Source: Mesaphorura yosii (Eukaryota; Arthropoda; Collembola; Poduromorpha; Tullbergiidae). Taken from it: a DNA stretch of 64,000 nucleotides. The position numbers were made by a program, and so were the translations under genes. Of the stretch, positions 5,564-9,826 are shown piece by piece (positions within the stretch are counted from its first letter, which is position 1; the number at the start of each line of letters is the position of its first letter). Below the pieces are notes generated by a model. The model ran no database searches. It was not told the origin of the DNA and saw nothing but the letters and a program-made list of their open reading frames with translations. The stretch is from assembly GCA_009869945.1 (NCBI GenBank), contig WIXG01000045.1:248001-312000 (forward strand). Reading direction: 5' to 3'.

Positions 5564-7087
5564 ATGGCGTGCTTGCGAGTCAGTTTCTTCTACCTTTTTG
5601 TCATGTCCCTTTTCGACGCAGGTCGGGCACAATTGTTTCCGGGTCTTGGCCCACCACTTTACAAACTGACAAGGCTAAGTAAGTGAGTTTAGACTTCAGC
5701 AGTTCAGGCTTGAAGTGAAGTTCTGCGATTCGGTCACAGCAACCGTCTCATATCTCATCTTTCACAGATGTTGACCCAAACCAAGTCACTGTGTCCGGAT
5801 TTTCCAGCGGAGGTGCTCAAGCAATGCAGTTTCACGTGTCTCATTCCTCAAGATTGCTGGGTGCTGGAATCTTTGCTGGTGGTAAAGTCAATTACTCCTG
5901 TCAAAATTAAGAGCAAGGCTTGAATTCATGAGCTTGTTTTGTTCTTTACTCTACTTAATTAGTTCCATACATGTCTGGCCATGACCGTAATCGCGACGAC
6001 TTCTTTGTGCATGAGCCTGACAAGTTTAATGTGACACAATTAGTGGAATTTGCTGAAGCTTTTGCTGAAATGAACATGTCTGATGACACCAAGTACCTGA
6101 ATGATTCACGAGTGTATGTGTATCATGGAAAAAGAGATTCCACGGTGCATTCGGGTAATGTGCGCAATAGCAATACTTTGAGAATTTAACTTGTATTTGC
6201 CCCCAGAATGCATTATGAATCTGGAATCTGCATTACTTGAAACCAAATAGGATGTGCCGATGTGATTGAGCGATTTTATACCGCGTTTGATGCCAGAGTT
6301 TACTCGGTCTCCAATATTGATTCAGAGCATGGAATGGTAAGAGGAAACCATAATATAATTGAGTCCCCATGAATTTGGTGGGAATTATTATAATCTGCAG
6401 CCCAGTGACAATAGCGGAGGTCCTTGTGGATTCATAAATCTTGCAAACTCCCTTGTTAACAAATGTGACTACAACGGAGTCTACGAAATGTTTAATTATC
6501 TTTACGGAGGAGATTTAGTCAAACCCTCAGGATCGGTTGGAACGGTGAACTTAGACAATGGTCAGTTCTTAAAGTTTGACCAATCTGAATTTTTCCCGTA
6601 CAACAAACCAGCCTTGGCAAGCATGGACACCATTGGCTTCTTGTACATTCCAAGTGGCTGTCACGCCTCGCTCAATGAAACGTGCAAACTGGGACTTGTA
6701 TTTCACGGATGTCTTCAAGACAGGTTGGTCACACACCGGTAGAGTATTTAATCGGGTTTCCAATGGTCCACTCTTTCTGTATTCAGATTCAATTACGGCG
6801 AGAAGTTCTCGAGATCCACTGGCTATTTAGAAACTGCTGAGCTCAACAACATCGTGCTCGTCTTTCCACAAGTTGCACCTTCATTTCTGTCACCTCGCAA
6901 CCCTCAGTCTTGCTGGGATTGGTGGGGCTTCACATCGAAATATTTTGGTAAGAATTTTGCATACCTTTAGCAACATAAATAGCATTACATTTAATTGCTC
7001 CTTCCTTGTTTGCTTGAAGCAACCCGAGATGGAATGCAAGTTCAAGCGATTAAGGCCATGATGGATCGCATTCTTGGGGAGGAGTGA
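5564..7087 (+). CDS. secreted PHB/PHA depolymerase-like serine esterase
   Basis: Seven exons (5564-5678, 5768-5881, 5963-6154, 6251-6336, 6401-6723, 6787-6947, 7020-7087) splice in phase to 352 residues. A signal peptide (MACLRVSFFYLFVMSLFDAGRA) precedes an alpha/beta-hydrolase domain of the poly(3-hydroxybutyrate) depolymerase family. Visible catalytic elements are the lipase box GFSSGG (nucleophile Ser51), HGKRDSTV (Asp135) and SEHGMPSD (His167). The second half has the family's CDYNGVYEMFNYLYGG and LVFHGCLQ blocks, NNIVLVFPQ and a SCWDWWG motif. The family hydrolyses short- or medium-chain polyhydroxyalkanoates outside the cell, though the animal substrate is not known. All triad residues are present, so it should be active. 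The family is mostly bacterial and fungal, but this copy is fully intron-bearing. Confidence 0.9.
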
Positions 7088-7128
7088 ATTTCTTGCTCTC
7101 TGCTTAATATGCTTTATTTAATTAAGGG

Positions 7129-7134
7129 AATAAA
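7129..7134 (+). terminator. poly(A) signal AATAAA of the esterase gene
   Basis: AATAAA lies 41 bases after the esterase stop codon at 7087, on the same strand, as expected for a short 3' UTR. Confidence 0.6.
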
Positions 7135-7714
7135 TAGAAATGCTTCTGGCTTAACTGAGATTTAATTAATTCTTGAGAGAATTCTCCGGTTCGAGAAAAT
7201 CAATCGTAAATCGTAATGACCACTCACACCATAGAATAAGAACAAAGACGATCTACCTCTTTGTTATTCATGGTAAAACAGCGGTTCGAGAAATAGATTC
7301 AAATGCGGATGTACACAGGTGTCAGGTTTAAAGATTTTCTATTGGACACAACACTTAGTTAACGGAGCCGTCACAAGTGGGCTAGAAGGTAAGATTGGAA
7401 TCCTATTATCAGATCACTGCGCCTACATGATCTCCTCCCTCAATACTGATCAGAATAGGCTGGGTTTCGGTTTGTTCGATTTACAGATATCTTGTGCACA
7501 ATGCTTGCCGCTTAAATTTCCTGAAAAACTCGAGTACATTTGGGAAGTTATCAAACAAGCGGAAGGAAGGTAAAACCTATCATTATTAGTATTATTAGTA
7601 GATAGCGTGGATTATTCTGTACAGTATCTGATTACAGATCTGTATCTGTAGTCTACGTAGATATACAGCGCATTTCAGCGTCAATCAGGATGGTCACCGA
7701 ACCCTCGAGCCCGG
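7135..7714. other. intergenic region
   Basis: One plus-strand ORF of about 84 codons (7319-7573) lies here. It has no recognisable domain and no clear splice support. No RNA gene was seen. Confidence 0.35.
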
Positions 7715-8162
7715 ATGGATTGGAATCAATTTTTTCTAGAAGCGAAACAACTGGAGGCAAGATCGAACGGAAAGTGGAAACACATGAAGAAGGCGTTCCT
7801 GGCATGGCTTTCGTCACAAATATATGCGTCAAACCAATTAAATATGGGAGTGAATTATTCCGATTTGAATATCATATTCTGTACCTGTGCTGCATTGGAA
7901 TGTATCCACCTTGGAGGGTCAGCTAATTCCATTTGAAACGATTTGGCCTGATTTATGTAAAGATAAGTCCTCTAGTCTAAATGTGTCGATTTCGCAAGGC
8001 GAGCATCCAGTCCTTCAAAGACCATTTAACTTCCTTCATCCTTGCCACACCGAAGATGTGATTAATAGTTTAGAAACTAGCAATTATCTTATTTCTTGAT
8101 TAAGCATTGTTGCGTCTTACGTGAGCATATCATTACCATTGGATCTATTCAAGGAATCCTGA
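7715..8162 (+). pseudogene. ATG10: ATG10 (autophagy E2-like enzyme) pseudogene
   Basis: Three reading frames read in succession give an ATG10-like protein. Frame 2 from 7715 gives MDWNQFFLEAKQLEARSNGK. Frame 1 then gives a GMAFVTNICVK / LFRFEYHILY part ending near 7883. Frame 0 from about 7884 gives PVLHWNVSTLEGQL, FETIWPDL and EHPVLQRPFNFLHPCHTED. HPC contains the catalytic cysteine of ATG10, the E2-like enzyme that joins ATG12 to ATG5. An in-frame TGA (8097-8099) stands where the family has Trp in its Y-I-T-S-W-L-S-I-V motif, and LSIVASYV...SLPLD continues to a TGA at 8160. No GT-AG intron can account for the two frame changes. Small deletions are also apparent. The copy has no introns, but no poly(A) tract marks a retrocopy. 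Confidence 0.75.
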
Positions 8163-8632
8163 CAGTTATTTCTTAAGCTTAGTTCGCAGGTTGGATATCT
8201 TCCACACGTGTTTTATTTATGATCTCTCAATAAACAAACCAGCATTAATGAAGTAAACAATCCAACCGCTTCACTACTGTAAACACATGCATCTTCTGAA
8301 CATACGAATGAAAGAAATTATTGTGAGTTGGTTGGTCTTTGAGATTCATTGTATGGCTCTGGCGTATAAGGAGGAATGTCATGGACATGAACAAAACTAC
8401 GCTACGAAACGCTTCATTGAATACAAAATGAACTTTATTGCTCTTTGAAAGGGCAATGAGCGTGTGTATTTGTGAATGCAAACGTAAGTTAATGCTTAAC
8501 TGATCAAATTACTGACATCCGCCGGCTTCTTAGAAGAAGCACACGCATTTCTGATTTGCACAACCATTTTTATGAAACCAGTCCATACTATTTAGCTGGA
8601 ATCTTCAGTCACAATGAGTTATTGGGTGAGAG
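8163..8632. other. intergenic region with a plus-strand AATAAA at 8229-8234
   Basis: An AATAAA lies 67 bases past the end of the ATG10 relic and may be its surviving poly(A) signal. The rest, upstream of the next gene, shows nothing I can name. Confidence 0.35.
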
Positions 8633-9826
8633 ATGGTATCCAGCCTAGTCTCCACATTTGCGCTGGTTCTTTTAGTGTCACTCCAGTGCTCTGTGACATA
8701 CTGCGACAATTATCAGAATAGTTCGCTATTTCCGTCCACTAGCTCTAGTTCAGCGCAAAAATCTCTCTTCATCAATAAACATATTCTGGATCCCAGCGAA
8801 GAAAGAAACTGTGACTACATCAAATGGCGGTCCAAAGAGTGGTCAGCATGGCTGGTGCGGACAAATACTCAAGATGGAATCCTCCACGGTAGCTACTACG
8901 GATCAATTCTCAGAGGACGAAATATTTCTGTCATTATTGGCGAGCCGTCACTAGTATTGGGTTCAATACACGAGTCGAATTCCACGGCACAGGTTAGACA
9001 CAGGTCGCTGGTCGATTTCCAACGTGTATTCAAGAATAATGCTGACACATTTTTACAGGATTCTAGCGTTGGAACAAGAGAAGTTCACATGTACGTCAGC
9101 AACAGGAATTTCACCATCTATCATTTTATGAGAGCGCAGGAGAAGCAAAGTCCTGGTGATAATTTTGTAGTGTACGAACTGTACAAAATATGCAGTACGT
9201 CCTTCAACATTGTTAAAACTGTTTTTGGGGAAGATCGAGAGACAGTGCAACTAATTGTACCTGCAGTGGCTGAAGGTTGGGAGAATCAGAAAGAAGATTT
9301 TGTGATTCTGGTGTATTTTACCCTGAAGGAATTTGATAGAATGTCTTTCGAAGCCTTAAAATCGATTGACATGGGTCAGCCGCAATTTTCCTCTGTGTTG
9401 GATGAAGAAGCCTTCCTGAGCACAGCGCGGAATCTTTTGCATAAGTATCCTGAACTTTTCATTGAAGACAAACCCGAGAACATAAAACCAGAGTCTTCGA
9501 CAGCCGATAATGGTGACCTGACCCAGAAACGGCTCGATTTCCAAGAAAGCTGGACTCTAATTACATGTTCCATTTCGGCCGTGAGAAGTGAAGAAGTCAT
9601 CACGAATCTGCATAGACTGAATCATTCAGAAAAATATGTGCTTTTTGAACTAGTCAAGACAGTTGGAAATGTTGCTGGAAGATGGTCAAAACTCGGGCTG
9701 TTAAGTGCGATTGCAAGGAGCCTTTCTAGCACTTCAACGTCTTCAAGCAACGTGGTCTTCGGTTCAATTAATTATGTACTTCTAGAGTGTGCTGCATTAA
9801 CTCTCTTAAGTCTTGTACCGCATTGA
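8633..9826 (+). CDS. secreted, probably GPI-anchored protein of unknown family
   Basis: A single open frame of 397 codons. It begins with a clear signal peptide (MVSSLVSTFALVLLVSLQCS), followed by a Ser-rich linker. It ends with a Ser/Thr-rich stretch and a hydrophobic tail without a cytoplasmic part (INYVLLECAALTLLSLVPH), the pattern of a GPI-attachment signal. Several N-glycosylation sequons are present (NSS, NIS, NST, NFT, NHS). The body has two loosely similar halves, each with aromatic beta-strand-like text (VHMYVSNRNFTIYHF; SWTLITCSISAVR), but I recognise no domain. Bases 8993-9058 look like a 66-base intron (CAG|GTTAGA...TTTTTACAG). Removing it keeps the frame and leaves 375 residues, so the true product may be the shorter one. 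Confidence 0.7.
   Translation: MVSSLVSTFALVLLVSLQCSVTYCDNYQNSSLFPSTSSSSAQKSLFINKHILDPSEERNCDYIKWRSKEWSAWLVRTNTQDGILHGSYYGSILRGRNISVIIGEPSLVLGSIHESNSTAQVRHRSLVDFQRVFKNNADTFLQDSSVGTREVHMYVSNRNFTIYHFMRAQEKQSPGDNFVVYELYKICSTSFNIVKTVFGEDRETVQLIVPAVAEGWENQKEDFVILVYFTLKEFDRMSFEALKSIDMGQPQFSSVLDEEAFLSTARNLLHKYPELFIEDKPENIKPESSTADNGDLTQKRLDFQESWTLITCSISAVRSEEVITNLHRLNHSEKYVLFELVKTVGNVAGRWSKLGLLSAIARSLSSTSTSSSNVVFGSINYVLLECAALTLLSLVPH

Follow-up and report, generated by a model that had tools for sequence, protein, structure and literature searches.

A broken ATG10 gene in the springtail Mesaphorura yosii, probably the original of an intact copy elsewhere in the genome

Introduction

Does a dead ATG10 gene mean that an animal has lost the E2 enzyme of ATG12-ATG5 conjugation? 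The question is raised by a broken ATG10 sequence in the springtail Mesaphorura yosii, situated in a stretch of 64,000 nucleotides that we call the window (C45:248001-312000, in an assembly of 93 Mb and 1127 contigs). In Apicomplexa and in Komagataella phaffii, according to the account given in PMC11764061, ATG10 has been lost and ATG12 and ATG5 form a non-covalent complex, and the springtail resembles these organisms in the starting lead, which here is a dead ATG10 sequence (PMC11764061). A preliminary description of the window proposed that this animal may have taken the same route, unless another copy of the gene existed, in which case the window would carry a duplicate or a retrocopy. Our literature search brought up no paper on a springtail ATG10, the match concerning a planarian.

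Results

A profile search of the assembly with PF03987 gave a match at C45:255872-256138 (7872-8138 of the window; E 2.4e-15) with one TGA inside, and the protein of the intact copy described below retrieved the same locus as three pieces, corresponding to its residues 3-31 (E 1.1e-11), 29-74 (1.4e-17) and 65-166 (6.0e-56), so that the ATG10-like sequence which the preliminary description had placed here is well founded. The last of these pieces contains two TGA codons, the second of which (7866-7868) adjoins a 19-nt gap. Four lesions distinguish the window copy from the intact one (Table 1). The two frameshifts, of 7 and 19 nt, and the replacement of a conserved Trp by TGA had been recognised before and were confirmed by the comparison with the intact copy, while the 2-nt gap behind the first ATG had been overlooked because the earlier reading began at the second ATG; of the two frameshifts, the 7-nt gap falls a little outside the range 7,790-7,890 named there.

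For three of the four lesions the direction of change can be read from related proteins. At the 7-nt site the two closest relatives agree in length with the intact copy, the 19-nt stretch is present in all ten ATG10 relatives, and the Trp of the ISWLSIV motif is kept in nine of the ten, the tenth (one of the two closest) stopping short of the motif. Since the relatives share the state of the intact copy, these three lesions are losses derived in the window. Where exactly the 19-nt gap falls is uncertain, since what is missing is one unit of an imperfect repeat. Judged from the sequence, the window ATG10 is a real pseudogene, and both this status and the ATG10 identity given in the preliminary description are supported. 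Splicing around the lesions was considered and rejected by reasoning, as the TGA interrupts a conserved motif and no part of the sequence is better conserved than the stretch hit by the 19-nt gap.

Table 1. Features of the ATG10 pseudogene, the neighbouring esterase gene and the DNA shared with contig C97 (coordinates of the window)
Feature	Position	Strand	Description
PHB-depolymerase/feruloyl-esterase-like gene	about 5566-7087	+	signal-peptide-like start (by eye)
Esterase preceding exons	6359-6947 (to 6723; 6787-6947)	+	show that the window holds the parent gene of the last exon
5' shared block	6955-7434	+	480 nt, 92% to C97:5502-5983; part of the esterase last intron, last exon, 3' region, intergenic DNA
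Esterase last exon	7020-7087	+	in place in the window, orphaned on C97
Unshared middle	7435-7646	+	212 nt, differs from C97; first half is a short dispersed repeat
3' shared block	7647-8214	+	568 nt, 90% (gaps counted) to C97:6521-7117; ATG10 and near flanks
ATG10 pseudogene, coding remnant	7690-8162	+	first ATG 7690, second ATG 7715
2-nt absence relative to intact copy	7692-7693	+	right behind first ATG; unpolarised with the relatives' proteins
7-nt absence	7774-7775	+	frameshift; the 7-nt tandem of the intact copy has one unit more
19-nt absence	about 7868-7869	+	one imperfect direct repeat unit; frameshift in the most conserved stretch
TGA for Trp codon, ISWLSIV motif	8097-8099	+	comparison with intact copy and relatives

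A search for ATG10 across the whole assembly, put forward in the preliminary description as a check on the loss, turned up an intact copy on another contig (C97) and so speaks against it. There, positions 6564-7064 form a single stop-free frame of 166 aa, whose protein scores 99.9 bits with PF03987 (cut-off 24.4) and carries the HPC active-site motif as LHPCHTED and the ISWLS-type motif as YLISWLSIV. The protein search with this sequence gave ten relatives, two of which are named ATG10 by their sources (Glandiceps talaboti and Ruditapes philippinarum), and two others are 48% and 54% identical to it; a PDB sequence search gave no matches. PF03987 was found at four places in the assembly, two of them exons of one gene on contig C8, the others C97 and the window, and the intact protein, used as a query with E values up to 10 allowed, retrieved the full-length C97 copy and the three window pieces. 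Two ATG10 loci were found in this way, by a search that scored the best candidates only and that a strongly decayed third copy might escape.

The C8 gene is ATG3, as its reading frames and many ATG3-named relatives among the best 120 of 2205 indicate. Among the same best 120, the species-named relatives are headed by the springtails Orchesella dallaii (71%) and then Folsomia candida (65%), with Allacma fusca (63%) ranked below some insects, and two other proteins are nearer (86% and 76%). In BLASTP the C97 protein is closer to the ATG10 of G. talaboti (46% over 112 aa, E 2e-31) than to the ATG3 of its own genome (22% over 105 aa, E 9e-6), whereas the ranking by fold points the other way: in the search with its structure model (mean pLDDT 87), ranks 1-8 were taken by ATG3 chains and the Atg10 chain 4ebr came ninth. 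The modelled fold places the protein in the ATG3/ATG10 E2 class without telling one from the other; that distinction comes from the sequence.

Genes for the other parts of the ATG12 system are present as well. The ATG12 frame on C215 has TVAWG as its last residues before the stop, and the C-terminal Gly, which the preliminary description had wished to see checked, is thus kept; a non-covalent ATG12-ATG5 system would be expected to go with an ATG12 lacking this residue. ATG5, on C68, has the three ATG5 Pfam domains and reads THFMSTVKEADALKH, with the KEADALK stretch kept, where we take the acceptor lysine to be located. The N-terminal domain of ATG7 has two matches on C191, one with an internal stop that is perhaps an intron edge, ATG16 has two matches above the cut-off on C526, one with three internal stops, possibly introns, and the ATG3 gene lies on C8. 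A loss of ATG10 with recourse to a non-covalent complex would suit the dead window copy and the precedents named above, but it is contradicted by the intact C97 frame, by the C-terminal Gly of ATG12 and by the lysine stretch of ATG5, and we regard it as extremely improbable. There is no sign of a non-covalent system among the sequences of the pathway genes found, and most likely the ATG12-ATG5 pathway is not lost.

How the two copies are related is suggested by the DNA around them. They have in common two blocks separated by a middle part that differs (Table 1). On C97 this middle (5984-6520) measures 537 nt and opens with 117 nt that recur, at 98% identity, at C97:10757-10873, towards the aconitase gene. 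On its minus strand the same C97 interval also has a frame that weakly resembles a Tc3-type transposase and stays under the Pfam cut-off, and the dispersed repeat of the window (7418-7533) has six other matches on five other contigs (72-81%). The copies diverge by 7.3% in the 5' block (35 of 479) and by 28 substitutions in the 3' block. When the 64-kb window was compared with C97:1-80000 (of 228,418), nothing alike was found beyond the two blocks at the settings used; since the flanks are unshared within these 80 kb of C97, the copies are not an uncollapsed allele. That the pair could be an assembly error or a haplotig is hardly credible: against it stand these unrelated flanks, the 28 substitutions, gaps of 2, 7 and 19 nt that are unlike homopolymer errors, and the lack of an N run at either junction in C97:1-10000.

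Both ATG10 copies are intronless, and in each the similarity stops near an AATAAA-type signal. These two features could be brought in favour of a retrocopy, with the C97 gene arising from reverse-transcribed read-through RNA; however, the 480-nt block shares an unspliced intron and intergenic DNA, and a poly(A) tract is absent at the C97 end, which makes this origin very unlikely. A copy made at the DNA level is likelier because intron and intergenic DNA are common to both loci.

The direction of copying may be read from the esterase gene upstream of the window ATG10. Its last three exons join through two GT-AG introns and end in ATRDGMQVQAIKAMMDRILGEE, and the gene is likely complete, with approximate 5' exon junctions. 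The name rests on relatives called 'Feruloyl esterase' and 'poly(3-hydroxybutyrate) depolymerase' by their sources, and on motifs seen by eye; the protein search gave only six relatives, both species-named ones being Orchesella. Against Pfam the gene model had no match above the cut-off and four below it, three of them to alpha/beta-hydrolase families, and a search for PF10503 had no match in the genome.

The start of the 5' shared block falls within the last intron of this gene, 7 nt past the intron's beginning. Of the esterase exons, the last one alone was seen on C97, with an M3 peptidase gene upstream of it and the aconitase gene downstream of ATG10. A Gly-x-Gln ending is present in four of the six esterase relatives (two Orchesella gene models end or diverge earlier), and the orphan exon on C97 differs at four amino acids, having lost among them the Gly that is kept in the window and in those four. 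A search with the last 197 residues of the esterase gave 36 matches on 22 contigs, three of them the window gene itself and none on C97, although a single short exon escapes a search of this kind, as the orphan exon there did.

Since the shared DNA starts within an esterase intron and C97 bears just the orphaned last exon, ATG10 probably had its ancestral location in the window, with the direction read from one genome. The opposite course, in which C97 held the original and the window received a copy dead or dying since its arrival, would agree with the intact state of the C97 gene, and what looks like an orphan exon would also be left on C97 if the body of the esterase gene had been deleted there later. 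We consider it unlikely, for the earlier esterase exons are in the window and, within the reach of the search just described, not on C97, an insertion exactly supplying the last exon of a gene is improbable, and it is the orphan exon in which the conserved Gly is changed. The preliminary description was right about a duplicate, though the broken copy looks to be the original and the intact one the derived, and its other choice, a retrocopy, is unlikely in view of the shared intron and intergenic DNA.

Substitutions between the copies were compared over 470 aligned coding sites. The 21 differences comprise 10 synonymous ones (about 102 sites) and 11 others including the stop (about 368 sites), which gives a nonsynonymous/synonymous ratio of about 0.3. 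These counts reject a model in which both copies were free (p 0.007) and one in which both were held at 0.1 (p 0.011); with one copy free and the other held, p is 0.09 to 0.15. In a weak test with small numbers, the substitutions fit constraint on one copy and release of the other, perhaps with a time during which both were functional. Compared with the ten relatives, four of the 11 differences look derived in the window (residues 8, 78, 134 and 146) and two more lean likewise (89 and 100), while 48, 55 and 140 are unpolarised. Residue 82 looks derived on C97, with the window residue in four relatives and the C97 residue in none, and residue 43 leans the same way, with the window residue in one relative and the C97 residue in none. 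As residue 82, and perhaps 43, appear derived there, the C97 copy has not stayed unchanged.

Discussion

We propose, with considerable confidence, that ATG10 was duplicated at the DNA level to C97, that the C97 copy was kept and that the original in the window decayed. A segment of at least about 1.26 kb, comprising the late part of the esterase gene and the whole of ATG10, would have been copied from the window locus to a new place, with the M3 peptidase gene on one side and the aconitase gene on the other. The copy there would have retained the intact ATG10 frame, presumably yielding a working E2 for ATG12-ATG5, and the window original, made redundant, would have gathered slippage-type deletions and a nonsense codon. 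We infer the direction of copying as well as the expression and activity of the C97 gene. One point against this proposal is the DNA upstream of the C97 ATG10, which differs from that at the original place; it would be conceivable that the gene, having exchanged its former upstream DNA for filler, is poorly expressed or expressed in few tissues and that the covalent ATG12-ATG5 step is weakening, but to this we assign a very small likelihood.

Similar histories have been described elsewhere. The human pair DPY19L2 and DPY19L2P1, as presented in PMC1475853, has a pseudogenised ancestral copy and an active relocated descendant, and the springtail case would be alike in that the ancestral copy is dead and a descendant at a new locus is kept, the latter known by its activity there and by its intact frame here (PMC1475853). 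The two differ in scale and support: low-copy repeats and mouse synteny in the human case, a segment of about 1.2 kb in a single genome in ours (PMC1475853). Alternate retention, with the ancestral copy dying and the descendant living, is reported for Cenp-C of the Drosophila montium group (PMC12724597). In the springtail the orphaned esterase exon points towards such a pattern, with a dead copy at the ancestral place and a live one at the new; the Cenp-C history was tracked across 23 species, while that of the springtail ATG10 comes from one genome (PMC12724597). In contrast to Apicomplexa and Komagataella phaffii, as they are described in PMC11764061, an intact ATG10 and the terminal Gly of ATG12 are present here.

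The find is, as far as the loci compared tell, an ordinary duplication after which one copy decayed. What might have been reported as the loss of ATG10 in an animal is thereby withdrawn, and the case offers a small, readable instance of a single-copy gene changing its genomic place, with the direction of travel recorded in an orphan exon. It also calls for caution, as a dead gene at an old place does not prove that the function is lost.

Some minor observations concern the surroundings. The esterase gene may possibly belong to an expanded, perhaps laterally acquired family. Further along the plus strand, at 8633-9823, the window has an unbroken frame of 397 aa, which to the eye starts like a signal peptide and for which a Pfam search at E 0.1 gave nothing. 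Finally, an 88-nt stretch at the end of the 3' shared block (8127-8214) is free of substitutions between the copies, with one 1-nt gap, an identity whose chance would be about 0.001 had the stretch been named beforehand, though it was picked afterwards; gene conversion or a conserved 3' element could possibly account for it.
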